Below, piece after piece: positions 17,855 through 28,004 of a stretch of 34,156 bases of DNA. A model generated the notes under the pieces. That model ran no database searches and had not been told where the DNA came from. It saw only the letters and a program-made list of their open reading frames with translations. The stretch lies in NCBI GenBank assembly GCA_009692205.1, contig SHZR01000004.1, forward strand, positions 112,635 through 146,790. The letters are read 5' to 3'. Both the position numbers and the translations under genes were made by a program. The first letter of the stretch is position 1, and every line of letters starts with the position of its first letter. The DNA is from Gemmatimonadota bacterium. GTDB lineage: Bacteria > Gemmatimonadota > Gemmatimonadetes > Longimicrobiales > Gaopeijiaceae.

Positions 17855-19324
17855 CTACCGCTCCAGCGCCTCGAGCAGCAGGGGAATCAGCCCGCCGAAC
17901 GCGCCGTTGCTCATCACGAGCACCACGTCCCCGTGGCGCGCGCCGCTCGCCACGATCTCCACGATCGCGGGCACCTCCGCCTCGGCGCGGGCCTCGATGC
18001 CGCGCGCGGCGATCTGCCGAACGACGGTGTCGACGTCGAGCCGCTCATCGGCGGGCACCTTGTCGTGCGGCTCGGGCACTTTGAGCACGACGACGTCCGC
18101 GTCGTCGAAAGCCGCGGCGTACTCTGTCTGGTGGATGTTCCGGCGGCTGGTGTTGGAGCGCGGCTCAAAGACGGCCCAGATGCGGCGCCCCTGGTAGCGC
18201 GCGCGGATGCCCGAGAGCGTCTCGCGCACCGCGGTGGGGTGATGAGCGAAATCGTCGAGGACGAGCACGCCTCGGACTTCCCCGCGCACCTCTTGGCGGC
18301 GCTTCACACCGCGGAAGCTCGCGAGTCCGGCCGCGATCTTGTCGGCGGGGACGCCGAGGGCGCGCGCGGCGGCGAACACGCCCGTCGCGTTCTCCACGTT
18401 GTGGCGGCCGGACATGGGGAGGAGCACGTCCGCCAGGTCGGCGTCCCCCGCGCGCACGACGAAGCGGGCCCCCTCTTCGCCGAAGCGAACATCGCGGGCT
18501 TCGACATCCGCGGCGCGCGCCACGCCGTACGTGACGACGCTCGCCTCCCCGTGCGTCCGGGCGATCTCCACGGCGCGCGGGTAGGCCGCGCTCACGCCGA
18601 TCCATCCCCCGCGCGGGAGCGTGTCGCAGAAGCGCTCGTACGCGCTCTCGTAGTGCGCGAGGTCCCGGTAAATATCGGCGTGGTCGAACTCGATGCTCGT
18701 GAGCAGCGCCGTGCGCGCGCGGTAGTGCAGAATCTTGGGTCCCTTGTCGAAGTACGCCGTGTCGTACTCGTCCCCCTCCACCACGACGTGAGGGCCCCGG
18801 CCGAGGCGGAAGTTGCCGCCGTAGTCGAGCGTCACGCCCCCCACCAGGAACGTCGGGTCGAGGCCCGCGTGCACGAGGACGTGCGCGAGGAGCGCCGATG
18901 TGGTGGTCTTCCCGTGCGTTCCGGCCACGACCACGCTGTGCCGTCCCTTCGCGACCAGCGCGCCGAACGCGGCCGGGAAGCTCATCTGCGGTAGGCGGCG
19001 TTCGCGGACCGCGGCCGCCTCCAGGTTCACGCGCCGGACGACGTTTCCGATGATCACGAGGTCGGGGCGTGCCCGCTCGAGATTCTCTGGAGCGAACGGC
19101 GTGAGCACCTCGATCCCCCAGGCGGCCAGCATGTCGCTCATGGGCGGGTAGACGTTCTCGTCGCTCCCGGTCACTTCGTATCCGGCGGCCTTCAGCATCC
19201 CCGCGAACGCACCCATGCCGGTGCCGGCCACGCCGACGAGGTGGATCCTGCGAACCGTGCCCGGCGCGATGTCTGCGAGCACGAGCCCGTTATCGTCGGG
19301 GGCGACCGCGTCGGCCGAGTTCAT
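17855..19324 (-). CDS. mpl: UDP-N-acetylmuramate:L-alanyl-gamma-D-glutamyl-meso-diaminopimelate ligase (Mpl)
   Basis: The 489-residue cytoplasmic ligase joins recycled murein tripeptide to UDP-MurNAc with ATP, returning it to cell-wall synthesis. The N-terminal Rossmann motif GVAGTGMGAFAGML (31-44) binds UDP-MurNAc; GTHGKTTT (135-142) is the ATP loop; EGDEYDTAYFDK (183-194) is the hallmark that separates Mpl from MurC; HNVENATG and FEPRSNTSRRN are Mur C-terminal domain motifs. Length is close to E. coli Mpl. The start is ATG 19324, seven bases after the stop of the SpmAB gene, so this is the last gene of a four-gene operon. The recycling role is supported by the neighbouring MpaA- and carboxypeptidase-like genes. 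Confidence 0.95.
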   Translation of the reverse strand: MNSADAVAPDDNGLVLADIAPGTVRRIHLVGVAGTGMGAFAGMLKAAGYEVTGSDENVYPPMSDMLAAWGIEVLTPFAPENLERARPDLVIIGNVVRRVNLEAAAVRERRLPQMSFPAAFGALVAKGRHSVVVAGTHGKTTTSALLAHVLVHAGLDPTFLVGGVTLDYGGNFRLGRGPHVVVEGDEYDTAYFDKGPKILHYRARTALLTSIEFDHADIYRDLAHYESAYERFCDTLPRGGWIGVSAAYPRAVEIARTHGEASVVTYGVARAADVEARDVRFGEEGARFVVRAGDADLADVLLPMSGRHNVENATGVFAAARALGVPADKIAAGLASFRGVKRRQEVRGEVRGVLVLDDFAHHPTAVRETLSGIRARYQGRRIWAVFEPRSNTSRRNIHQTEYAAAFDDADVVVLKVPEPHDKVPADERLDVDTVVRQIAARGIEARAEAEVPAIVEIVASGARHGDVVLVMSNGAFGGLIPLLLEALER

Positions 19325-19331
19325 CCCGAGA

Positions 19332-20564
19332 TCAACCGAAGAAGACGTAGGCGACGAAGACGGCCGCGATCATGCCTGCGAAGTCCGCGATGAGACCCAC
19401 CGTCACCGCGTGGCGCGTACGCCTCACACCCACGGACCCGAAGTAGAGCGCCAGGATGTAGAACGTGGTGTCCGTGCCGCCCTGGAAGATCGAGGCGAGG
19501 CGTCCCGCAAACGAATCGGCGCCGTGCGTCTGCATGGCATCCAGCATCATCGCGCGCGCGCCGCTTCCCGAGAGCGGCTTCATGAGCGCCGTCGGCAGCG
19601 CGGGGACCCAGTCGGTGCGGAAGCCGAGCGCGGCGAACCCGTTGCCGACGCCGGTCACGAGATAGTCGAGCGCGCCCGACGCGCGGAACACGCCGATCCC
19701 CACCAGCACCGCGACGAGGTACGGCACGATCCGGATCGCGACCGAGAAGCCCTCCTTCGCGCCCTCGATGAACGCTTCGTACACGTTGATGCGCTTCACG
19801 AGTGCCATCACGATGAACGCCGAGATGATCCCGAAGAGGGTGATGTTGCCCACGGCGCCGGAGATCGTTTGCACCCGCTCCGGCGGGAGGTCGTACATGT
19901 ACCACAGCGTCCCCGCGACCAGGGCGGTGAGCGCCCCCAGGTAGGCCAGCACGACCCGATCGAGGAGGTTGATGCGCTGCACGAACGCGACCGCGAGCAG
20001 CGCGATCAGCGAGCCGATGTAGGAGGCTACGAGAATCGGCAGGAAGATGTCCGACGGGTTCGCCGCGCCCATCTGCGCGCGGTACGTCATGATGCTGATC
20101 GGGATGATGGTGAGGCCCGACGTGTTCAGGACCAGGAACATGATCTGCGCGTCCGTGGCCGTTTCCTTGTCCGGATTCAGCTCCTGGAGTTCCTGCATGG
20201 CCTTGAGCCCGAGCGGCGTGGCCGCGTTGTCGAGCCCGAGCATGTTGGCCGCGAAGTTCATGATGATGGAGCCGTGCGCCGCATGGCCGGCCGGTACGCC
20301 CGGGAACAGTCGCTGGAAGAACGGGCTCACGACCTTGGCCAGCACCGCGATCGCGCCGCCGCGCTCGCCGACCTTCATGAGCCCGAGCCATAGCGTGAGC
20401 ACGCCGGCGAGCCCGATCGAGATGTCGAAGCCCGTCGTCGCCATCTCGAACGTGCTGTTCACCATGTCGGTGAAGACCTGCGTGTCGCCGAGGAGAATCA
20501 GGCGCGCGAGCCCGACCACCAAGGCGATCAGGAAGAACCCGACCCAGATGTAGTTCAGGACCAC
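19332..20564 (-). CDS. Fused SpmA-SpmB-type membrane protein (nucleoside recognition/Gate domains)
   Basis: The 410-residue inner-membrane protein has about nine or ten hydrophobic segments, beginning YIWVGFFLIALVVGLARLIL. The first half matches SpmA: GLDNAATPLGLKAMQELQEL is its signature. The second half matches SpmB: SGSGARAMM, then GGTDTTFYILALYFGSVGV. In Bacillus the two are separate spore maturation proteins; here they are one polypeptide in a species where nothing else suggests sporulation. These proteins belong to the nucleoside-transporter-like Gate family. The start is GTG 20564, six bases after the MpaA-like stop. The operon suggests transport of cell-wall peptides or sugar-peptides; this is inference. 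Confidence 0.88.
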   Translation of the reverse strand: MVLNYIWVGFFLIALVVGLARLILLGDTQVFTDMVNSTFEMATTGFDISIGLAGVLTLWLGLMKVGERGGAIAVLAKVVSPFFQRLFPGVPAGHAAHGSIIMNFAANMLGLDNAATPLGLKAMQELQELNPDKETATDAQIMFLVLNTSGLTIIPISIMTYRAQMGAANPSDIFLPILVASYIGSLIALLAVAFVQRINLLDRVVLAYLGALTALVAGTLWYMYDLPPERVQTISGAVGNITLFGIISAFIVMALVKRINVYEAFIEGAKEGFSVAIRIVPYLVAVLVGIGVFRASGALDYLVTGVGNGFAALGFRTDWVPALPTALMKPLSGSGARAMMLDAMQTHGADSFAGRLASIFQGGTDTTFYILALYFGSVGVRRTRHAVTVGLIADFAGMIAAVFVAYVFFG

Positions 20565-20570
20565 GGTCGG

Positions 20571-21284
20571 CTATTCCTCTGGGGGTCCGGCATGGTGGAG
20601 CAGCTCGACGAGCACGGGCACGTGCTCGCGCATGAGCACCTCGGTGGCCGCGAGCGGGAACTCGTAGGTCACGATCGGCCGGTCGTGGTCCTTCCCCCAC
20701 GAGCCGAACGAGCCGGGCGTGGCATACCCGACGTCACGGACGAGCGGCAGCCTACTCCGCTTCGCGAGCCAGCGGCCGAGACCCGTCTCGCCGGGGTCGT
20801 CGATGCAGGCGAGCGGCGCGTGCAGCGCGACCACCGCGGAGGGCCGGAGCTCGTCGATCAGCGCGAGCAGCGCCTGCACCTCCGGCTCGGAGGCCGCGCT
20901 CGTGCCGGGACTCACCGCGATGTCGCTCGCATCCTCGAGGGTGGAGCGATGCGTGACGGGTGCGGGCGACCAATTCCTTGCGGGGAAGTTGCGGTTCAGG
21001 TCGACGCCACGCGCGTTCACGCGCGTTCCGCGGATGAGTCCGTCCGGGTTCGTGGCGAGCACGACGGCCGAGTGCTCGGGCGGCTCGGCGAGCTGGCGGA
21101 GCGCGCGCGAGAGCGCGTAGGTCGTTTCGGGCTCCTCGCCGTGGATCCCCGCGAACACGAGGAGCCGGCACTCGGCGCGAGGGCGCCACACCTCGAGCGG
21201 CAGCCCGAGGCTCGAGCGGCCGTACGTCGAGGGCGCCCACGGGATCGTGCCCCACTCGGGGCGCGAGCGAATCGGAGCGCTCAA
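20571..21284 (-). CDS. MpaA-like murein peptide amidase (M14 zinc carboxypeptidase family)
   Basis: The 237-residue enzyme is close in length to MpaA, which cuts the gamma-D-Glu-meso-DAP bond of free murein tripeptide in the cytoplasm. The zinc ligands are His48 and Glu51 (GIHGEE) and His155 (VALHAPL). NPDGL (79-83) and VNARGVDLNRNFP (89-101) are substrate-binding motifs, and Glu208 in TYEFP is the catalytic base. There is no signal peptide. The start is TTG 21284, overlapping the stop of the M15 gene as TTGA. Family-level assignment is firm; the exact substrate depends on the context, which supports MpaA. Confidence 0.86.
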   Translation of the reverse strand: MSAPIRSRPEWGTIPWAPSTYGRSSLGLPLEVWRPRAECRLLVFAGIHGEEPETTYALSRALRQLAEPPEHSAVVLATNPDGLIRGTRVNARGVDLNRNFPARNWSPAPVTHRSTLEDASDIAVSPGTSAASEPEVQALLALIDELRPSAVVALHAPLACIDDPGETGLGRWLAKRSRLPLVRDVGYATPGSFGSWGKDHDRPIVTYEFPLAATEVLMREHVPVLVELLHHAGPPEE

Positions 21285-21994
21285 GCGGGTTCCGGGGCGG
21301 TGTTCGCCACGAATCGCTCGAAGATCTCGTCCAGATCCCGGATCACGACGTCCTTGAGCCTCATGTCGACGCGCTCGAGCGTCTCCCGCAGCAGTGTAGG
21401 CGTGAGCGACCGCGCGTGCACCCGCGCGAGGGGTGCCCAGCTCAGGTGCCAGCGCTCAGGCGCCACCCCACCGCGGTCGCGGTCGTAGGGGCGAAAGAAG
21501 CCGAACGCCCTGTCCTCCGCAATGCACGCATCGAGCCATTCGTGGAGCGGACCGAACATCCCGCCCGGGTTCACCTCGGCCGGGACGAGCTCGACCTCGT
21601 AGCCCTTCGGCTTCGCCCGGGCATCGTAGACATCGAGGTCCGTGCCCCAGTGGTGGCGCGAAGCCCCGGGGAGCGCCGACCAGCGGAGGATCGCGAGGGC
21701 GAGCTCGCGGGGCTCGAGCGTGGCGACGTTCAGCGGGCGCGCGTCGCTGTCGAGCACCGCAAGCTCGCCGGCTGCTTTCCGATTCCAGATGGAGAGCTGC
21801 CGCTCGAAGCTCCGAAACCCCGAGAGGATCGTGAGGTCGAACCCTTCTCGTCGCGCGGCCTCACGGAGGGCGCGGAACGGCTCGACCGCGTCACGATGGA
21901 GTCGCGCCCCGAGCTCCTCGGCGTCGGTGGCCGAGCAGAGGTGGGCTTCCGAGCGGCCGAGTAGGACGGCGGGCAAGGGCGGGGTGGGGGGCAC
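21281..21994 (-). CDS. M15 family D-alanyl-D-alanine/L,D-carboxypeptidase (LdcB/VanY-like)
   Basis: The 237-residue zinc peptidase has the family motifs in order: SGFRSFERQLSIWN (58-71), SRHHWGTDLD (112-121, where His114 and Asp121 bind zinc) and ERWH (180-183, with catalytic Glu180 and zinc ligand His183). No signal peptide or lipobox is present (MPPTPPLPAVLLGRSE), so it is probably cytoplasmic. An L,D-carboxypeptidase of this kind would trim tetrapeptides to the tripeptide that MpaA and Mpl use. The start is GTG 21994. It is the first gene of the operon, and the region upstream to the sigma factor gene (21995-22129) should hold the divergent promoters. D,D-carboxypeptidase activity cannot be excluded. 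Confidence 0.87.
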   Translation of the reverse strand: MPPTPPLPAVLLGRSEAHLCSATDAEELGARLHRDAVEPFRALREAARREGFDLTILSGFRSFERQLSIWNRKAAGELAVLDSDARPLNVATLEPRELALAILRWSALPGASRHHWGTDLDVYDARAKPKGYEVELVPAEVNPGGMFGPLHEWLDACIAEDRAFGFFRPYDRDRGGVAPERWHLSWAPLARVHARSLTPTLLRETLERVDMRLKDVVIRDLDEIFERFVANTAPEPA

Positions 21995-22129
21995 GTGGTG
22001 AAGATCGGGGGGCTGATCGGCCGGGGAAAGGCGACGCCCTTTGTGAATGCCGGTGCGTGTGCAGGTATTTCGCCGTGATTCGTCCTATCATCCTAAGAAG
22101 CGTCGCCAACCCAACGACGGGCGGGCCCC

Positions 22130-22639
22130 GTGAAGACCGATTGGGCGGAAGTCTACCGCGCCACGTACGGCGATCTCGTCCGCTACCTGTCGTGGAGGGT
22201 GAAGGACGAGGACCGCGCGCACGACCTCGCTCAGGAAGCCTTTGCCCGCGTCCTCGACCGATCCGCGGACAACGCACACGCGCTGGTCTTCAAGGTTGCC
22301 ATCAACCTGGTTCGCGACGACGAGCGCACGGTGGTACGCCGCAGGCGCCACCTCGCGCTTCTCCGCGTCGAGGCGGAGGTGCGTGCGGAGGCGGGCCCGT
22401 CTCCGGCGGAGCAGGCTCAGCGGTCCGAGGACGTAGAGCGACTGCGGCGGGCCCTCGATGCGCTTTCAGAACGGGATCGCGAAGTCCTTCTGCTGTGGGA
22501 TGCCGGTCTCTCCTACGCAGACATAGCCGAGGAAACCGGCCTGGCCCTCGGCGGGATCGCGACGACGCTGGTGCGGGCCAAGAAGAATCTCGTGGAGGCG
22601 CACCGCGCGCTGGAGGTGAACGATGCAGCACTTGGATGA
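22130..22639 (+). CDS. ECF-type RNA polymerase sigma factor
   Basis: A 169-residue sigma-70 family protein of the extracytoplasmic-function class. Region 2 is at about 7-45 (YRATYGDLVRYLSWRV, then DLAQEAFARVL) and region 4 at about 112-160 (LSERDREVLLLWDAGLSYAD, then TTLVRAKKNLVEAH). It has no region 1 or 3. The start is GTG 22130. It overlaps the anti-sigma gene by 17 bases, so the pair is translationally coupled. Its regulon is unknown; the aldehyde oxidoreductase genes 1.2 kb downstream are candidates by position. I see no convincing GGAAC-type promoter upstream, so autoregulation is unproven. Confidence 0.92.
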   Translation: MKTDWAEVYRATYGDLVRYLSWRVKDEDRAHDLAQEAFARVLDRSADNAHALVFKVAINLVRDDERTVVRRRRHLALLRVEAEVRAEAGPSPAEQAQRSEDVERLRRALDALSERDREVLLLWDAGLSYADIAEETGLALGGIATTLVRAKKNLVEAHRALEVNDAALG

Positions 22640-23747
22640 GGGAACCCTGCAGGCGTGGCTGGACGGCGCACGCTCGGGGCTCGACCCCTCCAGGCTTGCC
22701 ACGATCGATCGTCACCTCGCTGCGTGCACTGCATGCGCTTCGCGCGCCGACGCGCTCGCCCGCTCGAGCTTTCGCGCTCACGGGTTGCTCGCGGTCGGCC
22801 GCGCCCAGTATGCACCCCGAGTGCCCTACGAAGACGTCGCCAAGCGTGCTCGCGGCTCGCGCACGCTCGAGGGCTCGCGCACGCGTAGGGTCGCTGCGAC
22901 CTGGGCGGCGAGCATCGTCGGCGCCCTCGCGGTGGGATGGATGTCGAACGACCTCTCTCGTGCGGACGCCGCGGCCGGAGTGGAAACGGTGGAGGTCGCG
23001 TCCGTCCCGGCGGCTGCCGCGCCGCCGCCGACCGCGATTGCCCAGAGTCCCTCTGCCGCGTCCGCCTCGCTGGGCGCTCCGTCCAGCGAGCCCGCGAGCG
23101 CTCCCGCGACGGTCGTGCGTGGCCTCGTCGAGGACGAGGGGGGCAGGCCGGTTCCCGCCGCTCAGGTCTATGTCGCCGAACTCGCCGTGGGTGTGCTCAC
23201 GCGGCAGGACGGACGGTACGATCTCATGTTGCCCGCCGAACCGGATTCCTTCGAGCTCACGGTGCAGCGCATCGGCTTCCGGCAGCAGGCGCGAGCGATC
23301 AGCGGCGGTGAGGGTGATTACGTCGATGCCGACTTCCGACTCAGGGAGGAGGCGCTCGCGCTGGACGAGATCGTCGTCACAGGGGAGTCCGACGGGCCGG
23401 TGACCAGCACGAGAGCCACACCCTTCGTGTGGCGACCCTTGTCGTCGATCGCGGCGGAGGGGTACGTGGGCTCGGACCTCTGGATGCTGCCGGGGCTCGA
23501 CGTGCTGACGATCGAGGTCGCGCTCGGCGATAACTCCAACGAGATGCACGTCGCCCGCGTGCGCCAGGGTCTGGGAGACGGCACCACGCTGACGCTAGTC
23601 CAAGGGCGTACCGACGGGCGCCGCACCAGGTGGCCCATCCAGTCGGCGGGTGTCGTTCAGTCGACGTGGCGGGGCGAGATGCTGATCACCGCGACCGCTC
23701 CGGTCTCCGCAGACTCGCTGCGTACGTTGCTCACGCTCCTGCGATAG
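22623..23747 (+). CDS. Membrane anti-sigma factor fused to a carboxypeptidase-regulatory-like domain
   Basis: This 374-residue protein has three parts. Residues 1-45 form a zinc-finger anti-sigma domain with His31, Cys35 and Cys38 (HLAACTAC), which would bind the partner sigma factor in the cytoplasm. Residues 92-106 (ATWAASIVGALAVGW) are one transmembrane segment. After an Ala/Pro/Ser-rich linker, residues about 164-255 resemble the CarboxypepD_reg-like domain common at the N-terminus of TonB-dependent receptors (VVRGLVEDEGGRPVPAAQVY, later LDEIVVTGE, which resembles the TonB-box/plug junction of such receptors). A C-terminal region to 374 has no name. The start is ATG 22623, inside the sigma gene. 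Sensing an envelope signal is likely. Confidence 0.82.
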   Translation: MQHLDEGTLQAWLDGARSGLDPSRLATIDRHLAACTACASRADALARSSFRAHGLLAVGRAQYAPRVPYEDVAKRARGSRTLEGSRTRRVAATWAASIVGALAVGWMSNDLSRADAAAGVETVEVASVPAAAAPPPTAIAQSPSAASASLGAPSSEPASAPATVVRGLVEDEGGRPVPAAQVYVAELAVGVLTRQDGRYDLMLPAEPDSFELTVQRIGFRQQARAISGGEGDYVDADFRLREEALALDEIVVTGESDGPVTSTRATPFVWRPLSSIAAEGYVGSDLWMLPGLDVLTIEVALGDNSNEMHVARVRQGLGDGTTLTLVQGRTDGRRTRWPIQSAGVVQSTWRGEMLITATAPVSADSLRTLLTLLR

Positions 23748-23866: not shown

Positions 23867-24499
23867 ATGCACGACAACGCTCCAATCCCCCGCGGTGGGC
23901 CGACGAACGTCACCCGGCGCACGTTCATCAAGGGCGTGATCGCCGGCGGCGTAGTCGTTTCGTCCACCGCCTACCTCTTCCGCAACGGCCCGCTCTCGGC
24001 TCAAGCTGCCCGAGCGGGCACCGTCGAGCGCCTGATGACCCTCGAGGTCAACGGCCAGTCTCGGCGGGTCGACGTGGCGCCGAACGAGACACTGGCGAAC
24101 ACACTGCGCTACAAGCTCGGGCTCACGGGCACGAAGCTCGGCTGTGACCGCGCCGAGTGCGGCGCGTGCACCGTGCTCGTGGACGACGTGCCGCGCTACG
24201 CTTGCTCCGTGCTCACGCACTCGGTCCGCGGACGTAGAATTCAGACGGTCGAGGGGCTCGCCGCGGCGGATGGCACGCTGCACCCGATCCAGCAGGGCAT
24301 CATCGAAGAGCAGGGTTTCCAGTGCGCCTTCTGCATGAGCGGGTTCATGATGGCCACGGTCGGATTCCTCAAGAAGAACCCAAATCCGACGCGCGAAGAG
24401 CTGGCACACGGGGTATCGGGCAACCTCTGCCGCTGCCAGGACTACGACAAGATCCTCACGGCGCTGGAACGCGGCGCGCAGCTGGCGAGGGAGGCCTAA
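23867..24499 (+). CDS. Tat-exported Fe-S subunit of a periplasmic aldehyde oxidoreductase (PaoA-like), cassette 2
   Basis: This 210-residue subunit carries a twin-arginine signal, TRRTFIKGVIAGGVVVSSTAY (16-36, arginines 17-18), so the folded complex goes to the periplasm. The first [2Fe-2S] cluster is bound by Cys93, Cys98, Cys101 and Cys113 (CDRAECGAC). The second is bound by Cys153, Cys156, Cys188 and Cys190 (CAFC and CRC); the usual CGFCTPG reads CAFCMSGF here. The start is ATG 23867 with aaggagag at 23856-23863. Length and signal match E. coli PaoA, whose PaoB and PaoC partners have no signal of their own. The next gene starts two bases after this stop. Substrate likely an aldehyde; not proven. 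Confidence 0.93.
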   Translation: MHDNAPIPRGGPTNVTRRTFIKGVIAGGVVVSSTAYLFRNGPLSAQAARAGTVERLMTLEVNGQSRRVDVAPNETLANTLRYKLGLTGTKLGCDRAECGACTVLVDDVPRYACSVLTHSVRGRRIQTVEGLAAADGTLHPIQQGIIEEQGFQCAFCMSGFMMATVGFLKKNPNPTREELAHGVSGNLCRCQDYDKILTALERGAQLAREA

Positions 24500-24500
24500 C

Positions 24501-26978
24501 ATGGGCAGCACGCGACTGGTAGGTGAGAACTACACCACGCCGGATCTCCTCGCGAAGGTGACGGGCCGCGCCAAATACGCGGAGGACTTCCGCGTGGACG
24601 GCATGCTGTTCGCGAAGCTCCTCCTGAGTCCGTTCCCTCACGCGCGCGTCCTGAGCGTGGACACGACCGCCGCGGAAGCGATGCCCGGAGTGCGCGGGAT
24701 CCTCCGAGCGGGCGAGCTGCCCGCACCTGCGGACACGGTGACGGACCTCGGCGAGACGATCCGCGCCAATCCAATGGGCGAGCGAGCGCTCACCGACGAG
24801 CCGGTCTATGCCGGAGAGCCGGTGCTCGCGGTCGCGGCCATCGACGAAGAGACCGCCGCCGCGGCGATCGAGGCGATCCGCATCGAATGGGAGCCGCTCC
24901 CGTTCGTGGTCGATCCGCTCGAGAGCCTCCGCCCCGATGGGCCGAACCCCCGTGAGCAGGGCAACAGCTGGGGCCGCGCGCCGTCCGAGGCGGGCGGGCC
25001 TCCGGGCGAATTGGTGGTCCAGTCCATCAAGTGGGCGAGCGCGGACTGGGGCGAAGTCGACGAAGGCCGGCTGCCGGAAGGTGACCACCAAACCGACTGG
25101 TCCTACGGCGATCTCGAGGCCGGCTTCCGCGACGCCGCGCTCGTGCTCGACGAGACGTTCTCCACGCCGAACAATCAGCACCATTGCCTGGAGACGCGCA
25201 CGGCGCTCGCGTATTGGCAGAACGGCAAGCTGTTCATGCACACCGGCACGCAGAGCGCGGTGCAGACCGTCGCATCGATCTCCCGCTGGATGAACCTCGA
25301 CCTGGCCGACGTCGTGCTCATTACCGAGTACACGGGCGGCGGCTTCGGTAGCAAGGCGACCGGCGCGGTGAGCTGCATGATCCCCGCGATGCTCGCCAGG
25401 AAGACGAACCAGGCCGTGATGATGCGAATCACGCGCGAAGAGGAGCAGATGATCGGCGGGCTGCGCCCGGCGGTGCACGGCCGCATCAAGGCCGGCTTCG
25501 CGCGCGACGGCCGCCTGCTCGCGGTCGACATGATGACCGTCGGCGAGAGCGCCGCATACGAAGCGCAGGGCGATGCGGGCACTTCTGGGCGCATCGTGTC
25601 GCTGGTCTATCAGCCGGCGGCGATGCGCATGCGTTCGACCACCGTGCTCACGAACACGCCGCCCCGGCGCGCGCAGAGCCAGCCGGGCGGATTCCAAGGC
25701 ATCATGCTCATGGAGCCGGTCGTCTGGAAGGCCGCGCGCGAGCTCGGCATCGATCAGGTGGCGATGCGCCGCCTCAACGCACCCGTGGGCAAGGCCCAGT
25801 TCGGGCCGCCGAGCGGCAACGGCACGCTGCCGCACGTCACCAGCAGCTTCCTCGTCGAATGCCTCGATCGCGGCGCCGAGCTCTTCGATTGGCCGACGCG
25901 CGTCGCGCGCTCCGGCCAGCGAAACGGATCCACCGTGCGCGGGGCCGGCGTGGCGGTCAGCTCGTTCGTCGCCGGATCGGTCGGGTTCGACGGGCTGTTC
26001 CTCATCACGCCCGAAGGGCGGATGATCGTCAAGTCGGGCATCGGCAACCTCGGCAACGAGAACGTCTTCGACGTGCACCGCGTGGCGGCGGAGATGATGG
26101 GCGTTCCGTGGGACAAGGTGGACATCCACTGGGGCGACACCGCCAACCACCTCCCGTGGACCTGCGTATCCGGTGGTAGCCAGACGACGCACGCGATGAC
26201 GCGGGCGGCCCACGCCGCCGCGACGGACGCCATCGCCAAGGCGAAGGAGATCGCAGCGCGCACCCTCGGCGGAAACGCCGCGGCGTATCGCGTCGCTGAC
26301 GAGCGAGTGTCGGACGGCGCGCGCAGCATGACGCTGGCCCAAGTCGCGCAGCAGGCGATCCGGCTCGGCGGCCGCTTCGACGGACACGAGCTGCCCGAGA
26401 ACATCAATCGGGTCACGACCACGGCTGCTACGGCGCTCGCCGGGCAGGGGCTCATGGGCGTCGCGCGGGATACGTATCCACGCGACGGCACCACGTTCGG
26501 GTTCGCCGCGGGGTTCGCGGAGGTCGAGGTGGACCTCGAGACCGGACGCTACAAGGTCCTCGACTTCACCGCCGTGGGTGACTCGGGCACGATCATCCAC
26601 CCGCGCAACTACGGCGGCCAGCTTCTCGGGCGCTCCGTGCTCGGGATGGGCCACGCGCTCGCGCAGAAGACGGTCTACGACCAGCACTACGGGCTCTCGC
26701 TCGCGAACCGGTTCTATCAGAACCGTCCGCCGACGATCCTCGATATTCCCCGCAACATGCAGTGGGATGCGGTGAACCTGCCCGATCCCGAGACACCGGT
26801 CGGCGCCAAGGGAATCGGCGAGCCGCCGGTGGCCGCCGGCGCGATGGCTATCCTCAATGCGCTGTCCGCCGCGCTGGGCGACGAGATCTACCGCAGGGCA
26901 CCCGTGACGCTCGACACCGTGCTCATGGCGCTCGAGCATGGGCGGCCCATGCAAGAGCCGCTCACGGCACACATATAG
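24501..26978 (+). CDS. Molybdopterin-binding catalytic subunit, cassette 2
   Basis: The 825-residue catalytic subunit starts at ATG 24501, after a gagggagg ribosome site in the tail of the previous gene. It is about 100 residues longer than its cassette 1 counterpart; one clear insertion is at about 150-205 (WGRAPSEAGG, ADWGEVDEGR). GGGFGSK (279-285) contacts the cofactor, and VGAKGIGEPP near 767-776 contains the catalytic glutamate (about Glu774). At the place where cassette 1 has RAPSEPQ, this protein reads RAQSQPGGFQG (390-400), so the active-site loop differs. The substrate range probably differs too. There is no signal peptide, so it must be exported with the Tat-bearing Fe-S subunit. 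Confidence 0.93.
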   Translation: MGSTRLVGENYTTPDLLAKVTGRAKYAEDFRVDGMLFAKLLLSPFPHARVLSVDTTAAEAMPGVRGILRAGELPAPADTVTDLGETIRANPMGERALTDEPVYAGEPVLAVAAIDEETAAAAIEAIRIEWEPLPFVVDPLESLRPDGPNPREQGNSWGRAPSEAGGPPGELVVQSIKWASADWGEVDEGRLPEGDHQTDWSYGDLEAGFRDAALVLDETFSTPNNQHHCLETRTALAYWQNGKLFMHTGTQSAVQTVASISRWMNLDLADVVLITEYTGGGFGSKATGAVSCMIPAMLARKTNQAVMMRITREEEQMIGGLRPAVHGRIKAGFARDGRLLAVDMMTVGESAAYEAQGDAGTSGRIVSLVYQPAAMRMRSTTVLTNTPPRRAQSQPGGFQGIMLMEPVVWKAARELGIDQVAMRRLNAPVGKAQFGPPSGNGTLPHVTSSFLVECLDRGAELFDWPTRVARSGQRNGSTVRGAGVAVSSFVAGSVGFDGLFLITPEGRMIVKSGIGNLGNENVFDVHRVAAEMMGVPWDKVDIHWGDTANHLPWTCVSGGSQTTHAMTRAAHAAATDAIAKAKEIAARTLGGNAAAYRVADERVSDGARSMTLAQVAQQAIRLGGRFDGHELPENINRVTTTAATALAGQGLMGVARDTYPRDGTTFGFAAGFAEVEVDLETGRYKVLDFTAVGDSGTIIHPRNYGGQLLGRSVLGMGHALAQKTVYDQHYGLSLANRFYQNRPPTILDIPRNMQWDAVNLPDPETPVGAKGIGEPPVAAGAMAILNALSAALGDEIYRRAPVTLDTVLMALEHGRPMQEPLTAHI

Positions 26979-26990
26979 GGAGAGACTGAC

Positions 26991-28004
26991 ATGGCGACCA
27001 TTCACGATGTGATCCCGCCGTTCCAGCTCTTCCAGCCCACCACGCTGGACGCCGCCGCGGACCTCGTGCGTGAGCACGGCGACGAAGCCTGGATCATGGC
27101 CGGCGGCATGGACTCGTTCGACTGGCTCAAGGACCGCACCAAGCGGACGGAAGCCGTCATCGATCTCAGCATGGTCGAGGAGCTCCGCGGCATCCGGGAG
27201 GTGGAGGGCGGCCTCGAGATCGGGGCGATGACCACGCTCACCGACGTGGCGGAGCATCCCGCGGTCCGCGACCGATTCGGCGTGCTCGCGCAGGCGGCGG
27301 CGCTCGTGGCATCGCCGCAGATCCGGCATCAAGGAACGCTCGGCGGCAACGTCTCACAGGATACCCGCTGCGCGTACTACCGGCGCGGCTGGACCTGCTA
27401 CCGCGCCGGCGGCAACATCTGCTACGCGGATACGCCCACGGCGATCAACCGCGAACACGCGATCCTCGGTGCCAGCCGCTGCGTGGCGGTGAGCCCGTCC
27501 GATACCGCGCCCGCGCTCGTAGCGCTCGATGCGCAGATGGTGATCCGGCGCGGGGGACAGGAGCGTGTCGTCGAGGCGGAGGACTACTTCGTCGGTCCTT
27601 CCCGCGACATCCGGCACATGACAGTGCTCGAGTCCGGCGACCTCCTCACGACCATCCGCATTCCCGCGACGTGGGCCGGCGCGCGGTTCTACTTCGAGAA
27701 GGTGCGCGACCGCGAGGTGTGGGACTTCCCGCTGGTCAACGTGGCGTCGGCCATCCGCGAGAACGGCGGTCGCATCACGGAGGCGCGCGTGGTCGTGGGC
27801 GCGGTAGCCGCCCATCCGCTGCGCCTCCATGACGTCGAGGAGTCGCTCGCCGGAGCGATGGTGAACGACGAGACGCTCGTGCGCGCAGGCGAGCTCGCGA
27901 TCCGGGGGGCACGGCCGCTCCGGTACAACGCCTACAAGGTGCCGCTCATGCGGAACCTCGTGAAGCGCGCGGTGCGCGGCGGACCGACTGGGACGACGGC
28001 GTAG
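26991..28004 (+). CDS. FAD-binding subunit with a complete [4Fe-4S] site (PaoB-like), cassette 2
   Basis: The 337-residue FAD subunit begins at ATG 26991, 12 bases after the catalytic gene, with ggagag upstream. AGGMDSFDWLKD (37-48) and SPQIRHQGTLGGN (108-120) bind FAD. Four cysteines, Cys127 (RCAYYR), Cys136 (WTCYRAG), Cys144 (NICYAD) and Cys164 (SRCVAV), match the four [4Fe-4S] ligands of PaoB and of the 4-hydroxybenzoyl-CoA reductase beta subunit. The C-terminal domain resembles CO dehydrogenase flavoprotein C-terminal domains and ends with RYNAYKVPLMRNLVKRAV. It completes a three-gene PaoABC-type cassette. No xdhC/paoD-like chaperone gene is found in this window. Confidence 0.93.
   Translation: MATIHDVIPPFQLFQPTTLDAAADLVREHGDEAWIMAGGMDSFDWLKDRTKRTEAVIDLSMVEELRGIREVEGGLEIGAMTTLTDVAEHPAVRDRFGVLAQAAALVASPQIRHQGTLGGNVSQDTRCAYYRRGWTCYRAGGNICYADTPTAINREHAILGASRCVAVSPSDTAPALVALDAQMVIRRGGQERVVEAEDYFVGPSRDIRHMTVLESGDLLTTIRIPATWAGARFYFEKVRDREVWDFPLVNVASAIRENGGRITEARVVVGAVAAHPLRLHDVEESLAGAMVNDETLVRAGELAIRGARPLRYNAYKVPLMRNLVKRAVRGGPTGTTA

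Follow-up and report, generated by a model that had tools for sequence, protein, structure and literature searches.

In a 34,156-nucleotide stretch of a Gemmatimonadota genome (positions 112,635 to 146,790 of contig SHZR01000004.1, assembly GCA_009692205.1; the whole stretch is hereafter called the window), we identified an extracytoplasmic function (ECF) sigma factor gene followed by the gene of a membrane anti-sigma factor (ASF) whose periplasmic part carries a carboxypeptidase-regulatory domain (CPD) and a TonB-box-like tag. Judged by sequence, this combination is the layout of SusC-type receptor N-termini. Comparison with related sequences identifies the CPD as an insertion into an older Gemmatimonadota ASF family composed of a zinc domain, a membrane helix, a disordered linker and a domain resembling the C-terminal domain of RseB. 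Our leading reading, at about even odds, is that the ASF is a mimic-based periplasmic sensor that displays the N-terminal module of the envelope proteins surrounding it. The evidence comprises the architecture of the protein and its conservation, the insertion into the older family, the gene neighbourhood, the likeness of CPDs within a locus and a common putative promoter motif. The features of the system, with confidence given as the predicted local distance difference test (pLDDT) of an AlphaFold2 model, are:

22058..22084, + strand: putative autoregulatory promoter of the ECF gene, TGTGCAG-N14-TTCGTC, 45 nt upstream of its start codon
22130..22639, + strand: ECF-type sigma factor gene (GTG start, 169 aa)
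22623..23747, + strand: gene for the membrane ASF with receptor-type CPD (ATG start, 374 aa)
22623..22808, + strand: N-terminal zinc anti-sigma domain, residues 1-62 (ligands H31, C35, C38)
22872..22973, + strand: helix carrying the one membrane segment, residues 84-117 (assigned by DSSP in the AlphaFold2 model)
22974..23102, + strand: disordered Ala/Pro-rich periplasmic linker, residues 118-160 (pLDDT <50 at 119-131 and 140-152)
23109..23351, + strand: CPD of the SusC N-terminal-extension (NTE) type, residues 163-243 (Pfam and structural match)
23364..23384, + strand: TonB-box-like tag DEIVVTG, residues 248-254, in the same place as the TonB box DEVVVTG of Bt1763
23418..23744, + strand: C-terminal domain with a predicted RseB C-terminal-like fold, residues 266-374 (pLDDT mostly >90)

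The sigma and ASF genes overlap by 17 nt, and both reading frames are open. The first product matched TIGR02937 sigma70-ECF (63.8 bits, cut-off 42.9) and Sigma70_r4_2 (45.7 bits, cut-off 25.7), with Sigma70_r2 slightly below its threshold (22.0 bits, cut-off 24); containing sigma regions 2 and 4 only, it classifies by sequence as an ECF sigma factor. The second product carries the zinc-type anti-sigma domain proposed in the initial annotation of this DNA: the motif H31-x3-C35-x2-C38 is present, zf-HC2 scored 18.8 bits at residues 9-39 (just below its Pfam cut-off of 22.2), and the predicted domain has pLDDT >90 over most of its length. This Hx3Cx2C N-terminal domain, encoded directly after an ECF gene, assigns the protein to the class I zinc ASFs, and gene order and family suggest that it binds and inhibits the sigma factor. 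The single membrane segment that had also been proposed corresponds to one helix (84-117) in the model, with a hydrophobic core whose WAAS...GWM residues are conserved in relatives. Overall, the model (mean pLDDT 81) comprises the folded N-terminal domain, this helix, the CPD (163-240) and the C-terminal domain (266-374), the last two mostly with pLDDT >90; residues 119-131, 140-152 and 247-262 fall below 50. The protein is conserved within its genus (73% identity over residues 130-374 in genome G003, 41% over 115-374 in G002). A Pfam search at E up to 1 returned neither a FecR nor an STN family, on which ground a FecR/PupR-type ASF was rejected, and no Plug or barrel family, so that the protein is not itself a TonB-dependent receptor.

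Domain analysis placed both PF13620 (44.3 bits, cut-off 32.3, residues 165-240) and PF13715 (43.2 bits, cut-off 32.2, residues 166-252) in the periplasmic part, bearing out the claim of a carboxypeptidase-regulatory domain of the kind found in TonB-dependent receptors. The N-terminal part of the NCBIfam SusC/RagA model matched residues 165-254 (38.7 bits, E 3.9e-10), a score far below the full-length cut-off of 368, as expected because the ASF has no barrel. In structure comparisons, the predicted CPD aligned with the NTE of the SusC dextran transporter 9hfj (Z 12.8, root-mean-square deviation (rmsd) 1.9, 80 residues aligned), with the transthyretin-like domains of human and duck carboxypeptidases (Z 13.5-14.1) and with the Bt1763 NTE 6ytc (Z 9.8). 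The combination of PF13715/PF13620 with a predicted transthyretin-like fold identifies it as an NTE of the SusC type.

The CPD is followed by DEIVVTG, predicted to be disordered (247-262), which fits the TonB-box pattern: an acidic-x-hydrophobic-V-V-T-G-type stretch, flexible and placed after an N-terminal domain. According to the report on the SusC protein Bt1763 (PMC7782687), its NTE is a PF13715 domain directly followed by the experimentally defined TonB box DEVVVTG, which is flexible in nuclear magnetic resonance and whose removal abolishes transport; removal of the SusC-type NTE abolished growth on substrate, and its role is described there as unknown. The initial annotation had the protein end in LDEIVVTGE, which is not the case: another ~120 residues come after it and make up a domain of their own. 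Its placement of that motif at the end of the receptor-like domain stands insofar as the motif sits behind the CPD, but the motif is more than a domain end, since it matches the Bt1763 TonB box. Likewise, of the C-terminal 210 residues assigned to a receptor-like domain, the CPD portion holds, and the last ~110 residues are a further folded domain.

A regular expression for the tag, picked after the sequences had been viewed, matched 10/13 ASF CPDs, 33/36 receptor-type CPDs and 3/72 ASFs lacking a CPD. The genome containing the window encodes 4 TonB_C genes and 13 PF13715 stretches, including the ASF's own. On its contig C22 it also encodes a 241-residue stand-alone CPD and Plug protein without a barrel (L157:1297-2019, - strand), within ~3 kb of a TonB_C gene.

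To place the ASF in its family, we used 12 sigma relatives (set A1) as bait, which yielded 313 confirmed loci in GTDB genome contigs, of which the best 80 were kept. By title, 78 of these belong to Gemmatimonadota, Gemmatimonadales or Longimicrobiales groups or genera, one to an uncultured bacterium and one to Candidatus Benthicola. The survey for CPD-bearing ASFs covered Gemmatimonadota genomes, other phyla being reached through the sigma bait. An ASF-like open reading frame lies directly downstream of the sigma gene in all 80 loci, a few of these ASFs lacking the zinc ligands (e.g. L035, L041). The fusion that the initial annotation suggested seeking beside ECF genes in related genomes does recur: eight of the 80 ASFs carry a CPD (L032, L033, L034, L035, L039, L056, L058 and L059), and the window with further relatives (L018, L019, L144, L145) brings the total to 13. 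The sigma group occurs in 293/395 Gemmatimonadota genomes (E up to 1e-25), and a match spanning the CPD and the C-terminal domain together in at least 10/395, a lower bound because seven candidates were scored per genome. ASFs without a CPD have the same two ends with a plain linker between them. The CPD was therefore inserted between the linker and the C-terminal domain of an older ASF.

In two relatives the inserted material extends beyond the CPD:

L056:912-2576, + strand: ASF with CPD and Plug, without a barrel
L058:841-2427, + strand: ASF with CPD and, by eye, a shorter Plug remnant, without a barrel

The L056 protein carries a CPD (68 bits) and, at residues 325-438, a Plug domain of TonB receptors (PF07715, 40.5 bits against a cut-off of 23.9); L058, 74% identical to it, retains what looks by eye like a shorter Plug remnant. 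Both the CPD and the C-terminal domain are ordered in the L056 model, whose Plug is partly ordered in its second half (pLDDT ~60-68), with residues 334-404 below 50; since the first half of the Plug is disordered in the model, we do not claim an intact Plug fold, and structure searches with this model listed CPD matches only. The L056 Plug shows that receptor N-termini have supplied inserted material, at least in this lineage.

The C-terminal domain was found by iterated profile search in 69/81 ASFs of the family (80 loci and the window, some cut by contig ends) and is common to relatives without a CPD. Its folding in the model and this recurrence led us to reject the idea that the CPD tail is the end of the protein. 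In the structure comparison, residues 217-313 of E. coli RseB aligned with it (2p4b, Z 9.3, 87 residues aligned, rmsd 2.4; 2v42, Z 9.2). No Pfam family matched the domain in the window ASF, no RseB/MucB family was found at E up to 0.1 in 32 family members (Pfam), and a 32-member profile gave no PDB sequence match at E up to 10. Sequence kinship to RseB was rejected on these grounds, and the relation is thus one of predicted fold likeness, not of demonstrated homology. RseB controls cleavage of the ASF RseA in the E. coli sigma E system. The window ASF is like that pair in that its C-terminal domain resembles the RseB C-terminal domain, and unlike it in that the domain lies within the ASF itself and the RseB N-terminal domain is absent.

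These data invite a different reading, in which the signal is read by the RseB-like C-terminal domain, as it would be in the wider family without CPDs, while the CPD, captured by chance, serves only as a structural spacer or stabiliser. We consider this unlikely, while noting that the domain is present in most family members, mostly without a CPD, and that CPD-bearing ASFs are few. The pattern of selection bears on it from both sides. Between the window ASF and its same-genus counterpart L033 (G003), the ratio of nonsynonymous to synonymous substitution rates (dN/dS) is 0.29 for the zinc domain, 0.23 for the membrane part, 1.16 for the linker, 0.15 for the CPD, 0.13 for the tag region (242-256), 2.27 for the next nine residues and 0.13 for the C-terminal domain; these values are rough, since the tag stretch is as short as 15 codons and the post-tag stretch as 9, and several parts are close to synonymous saturation. 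The C-terminal domain is thus constrained as strongly as the CPD in this lineage, which accords with a sensing role for it. In the same comparison, the CPD and the disordered tag are kept like folded domains while the linkers on either side drift, which argues against the CPD being a mere spacer, as true spacers on both sides are not conserved.

The gene neighbourhood adds a second argument against chance capture. Divergent from the sigma gene, CPD-bearing relatives usually have a gene for a von Willebrand protein of the YfbK type (PF12450, PF12034), and this protein itself carries an N-terminal CPD except in L019. A YfbK gene adjoins the sigma gene in 5/6 loci with a CPD versus 0/55 loci without one (Fisher p 1.0e-6; 61/80 loci scored). 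The 19 loci omitted comprise nine whose ASF is cut by a contig end and ten with <2.5 kb upstream, including the CPD-bearing L056 and L058; L035 (~2.2 kb upstream) was kept as its YfbK was visible, and its exclusion gives counts of 4, 1, 0 and 55 (p ~1e-5, calculated by hand). The divergent arrangement is also found in L019 and L145, outside the bait-locus set. CPD presence thus tracks an adjoining YfbK gene, a pattern that speaks against a C-terminal sensor with an incidental CPD.

Moreover, the CPDs of the two neighbouring proteins resemble each other locus by locus. Among the six loci at which a CPD-bearing YfbK lies next to the ASF, the pairing of each ASF with the YfbK of its own locus gives the highest summed CPD identity (rank 1 of 720 pairings). 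We reconstructed a CPD tree from which identical domains and one odd domain had been removed (58 to 55 rows), labelling as TonB-dependent receptor any protein that was neither ASF nor YfbK. The ASF and YfbK domains of L145 clustered together (support 97/99), as did those of L035 (95/76), and the domains of L039 and L059, ASF and YfbK alike, formed one group (99/92). The ASF label requires at least three changes on well-supported branches; capture therefore seems to have been repeated, which further disfavours a single chance event retained as a spacer. The tags also match by locus: the two L145 proteins share QEIVATG, the two L059 proteins share QELVVTG, and the tag is degenerate in both proteins of L034. 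Such matching suggests repeated copying between neighbours or selection for likeness. The window CPD falls in a clade with the L033 and L032 ASFs (98/91), weakly placed among receptor-type CPDs of the same genus and family. Of the receptor-type domains, that of L028 from the same genome matches it best (48%; 53% for the L033 CPD); in sequence, the window CPD resembles the receptor CPDs of its own genome.

The sigma genes of this group share a bipartite motif, a putative promoter. TGTGCAA-N14-TTCGTC was recognised upstream of sigma genes in CPD-bearing loci by comparison of upstream regions; earlier manual counts of simple ECF motif words had been uninformative. The window site (22058-22084) is the only zero-mismatch TGTGCAR-N14-TTCGTC in its genome. 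Scored leave-one-out with a matrix built from seven typed sites, it reached 18.3, versus a best of 13.8 and a 99th percentile of 12.0 in 425 shuffled sequences. All 14 CPD-bearing loci have sites (best at least 11.3), 13 of them at or above 13.8 and L033 at 11.3. Sites above the 99th percentile also occur in 26/71 loci lacking a CPD, which makes the motif a feature of the sigma group at large. Genomes G189 and G298 each contain exactly two exact sites, one directed toward the sigma gene and one toward the YfbK gene. Its position and the divergent arrangement suggest that the motif acts as a promoter. A wider regulon in the window's own genome was rejected: the one exact site is the pair's own promoter, and a one-mismatch site on contig C48 has no evident target-like gene start. 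In G036 and G038 (L170 and L171, site 1501-1527), an exact copy lies ahead of a gene whose product has VIT and von Willebrand domains, which suggests a regulon of von Willebrand-type envelope proteins. In G009 (L169, site 1501-1527), an exact copy lies before the gene of an unclassified 496-residue secreted-looking protein, and the survey returned no CPD-bearing ASF from that genome.

In the mimic-based reading, an autoregulated ECF sigma factor would be held by the single-pass zinc ASF, which would show the same CPD module as YfbK-type proteins in most relatives or as SusC-type receptors in the window lineage. The cognate protein, or a partner common to both modules, TonB being the obvious candidate, may bind; binding would alter how far the ASF is open to regulated proteolysis and thereby free the sigma factor. 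The freed sigma factor would switch on its own operon and, where present, yfbK, allowing feedback via YfbK. In the window lineage, which has no YfbK, receptor N-termini or TonB are the candidate partners, and the ASF may exchange strands with a receptor. We infer the CPD as the sensing part, its binder, proteolytic release and the sign of the response. The presence of CPD and tag on ASFs also offers a natural genetic assay for the binder of the module, through a sigma-dependent reporter, and YfbK-type von Willebrand proteins gain a regulatory context.

Several results weigh against this reading. No PF12450 (YfbK) match exists anywhere in the window genome or G003, and in G331 the contig with the YfbK gene shows no ASF, the two being non-adjacent; partnership with YfbK cannot therefore be general, and YfbK as a universal partner was rejected, being absent from the window's own genome, G001, G003 and G004 as well as non-adjacent in G331. 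No receptor gene adjoins the pair in the window, so a neighbouring receptor as evident partner was rejected too. In the comparison with the more distant L032, the tag region has a dN/dS of 0.91 at 60% identity and the post-tag stretch 0% identity, which weakens the selection argument, though the L032 tag still reads QELVVTG. The tag is degenerate in 3/13 CPD-bearing ASFs (L034, L056, L058), indicating that a CPD can be retained without it. The CPD tree spans 99 columns with many open forks, and the likeness of CPDs within loci that share ancestry could reflect gene conversion without functional meaning.

The boldest version is direct coupling to TonB, in which TonB would bind DEIVVTG, its pull or its occupation by receptors would set ASF cleavage, and the sigma factor would report how busy or energised the TonB system is. 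We think this a little less probable even than sensing by the C-terminal domain, and give the same low credence to the idea that an inner-membrane ASF whose TonB box works, wearing the N-terminal module of receptors and, in relatives, of YfbK, would compete for TonB or for some other partner in common. In that case the ECF sigma factor would sense how far TonB is occupied or energised, or how abundant CPD proteins are, and would need no dedicated receptor for signalling. Direct coupling gains from the reproduction of the SusC N-terminus, a CPD followed by DEIVVTG, where the flexible DEVVVTG is needed for transport (PMC7782687), from the conservation of a tag predicted to be disordered, and from the segment EEALALDEI-[IV]-[IV]-TG, in which the window ASF agrees with the receptor-type protein L028 of its own genome; the TonB_C genes and PF13715 stretches of that genome are likewise consistent with it. 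It loses from the absence of the tag in three of the 13 CPD-bearing ASFs. Looser L-x-x-I-x-V tails also follow the CPDs of some non-receptor proteins (e.g. L160), suggesting that part of the tag may belong to the CPD itself, and YfbK proteins, which are not known to be TonB-dependent, carry the tag as well. If the tag does work, sigma control at the inner membrane would take direct input from TonB, an arrangement that none of the papers found describes.

An assembly chimera or dead fusion is highly improbable: the window genome is in 61 contigs and the G003 sigma gene (L033:5001-5506) matches over 506 nt, not a multiple of three and hence a frame disturbance, real or from assembly, but the same continuous reading frame occurs in independent genomes, the CPD is under purifying selection between the window and G003 and the promoter motif is conserved, so that conservation refutes a chimera or frame artefact for practical purposes.

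Turning back to the mimic-based sensor, precedents exist with another fold. Two reports describe a C-terminal STN subdomain of PupR homologous to the signalling domain of its receptor (PMC7186176), and the FoxA signalling domain binding FoxR through an STN-STN contact and shielding FoxR from proteolysis (PMC11637429). As in FecR, PupR and FoxR, the window protein is a single-pass ASF that bears in its periplasmic part a homologue of the domain with which a TonB-dependent receptor begins (PMC7186176, PMC11637429); unlike these STN-based ASFs, it has a CPD/NTE, a TonB-box-like tag, an RseB-C-like domain and a class I zinc domain. The domain order, PF13715 then a DEVVVTG-type tag, is that of SusC-type receptors (Bt1763; 6ytc, 9hfj; PMC7782687), but the window ASF is anchored in the inner membrane and lacks Plug and barrel, its relative L056 having a partial Plug. 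Class I ASFs with sensory fusions, including ECF52 and ECF53, similarly join an Hx3Cx2C domain to a C-terminal sensory extension, in ECF52 SCO4117 a proline-rich periplasmic part with a carbohydrate-binding domain (PMC8999054, PMC7406223). In contrast to the fused sigma/ASF proteins of ECF52/ECF53, sigma factor and ASF are encoded separately in the window, and the ASF bears a receptor-type CPD followed by a TonB-box-like tag. In the one collection of open-licence papers searched, which did not cover the group descriptions of the ECF re-classification, nothing was found on ASFs that carry a carboxypeptidase-regulatory domain. Relative to known receptor-domain ASFs, the novelty lies in the different domain, the TonB-box-like tag and the RseB-C-like end.

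The observation made in the initial annotation, a receptor-like domain within the ASF itself, is therefore confirmed, with the qualification that PupR and FoxR provide a precedent in another fold (PMC7186176, PMC11637429). Its interpretation is partly supported: it had named an outer-membrane receptor as a possible partner, and in relatives the adjoining candidate is a YfbK-type von Willebrand protein with the same CPD, not a receptor.

Upstream of the pair, the divergent genes at 17855-21994 (- strand) encode a Mur ligase, a nucleoside-recognition Gate protein, an M14/AstE-type zinc carboxypeptidase and a VanY peptidase, a cluster that resembles peptidoglycan recycling; G003 has a different gene upstream. 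Downstream, an operon at 23867-28004 (+ strand) encodes a three-subunit molybdopterin dehydrogenase (2Fe-2S, MoCo and FAD subunits), the first subunit of which has, by eye, a twin-arginine-like start.
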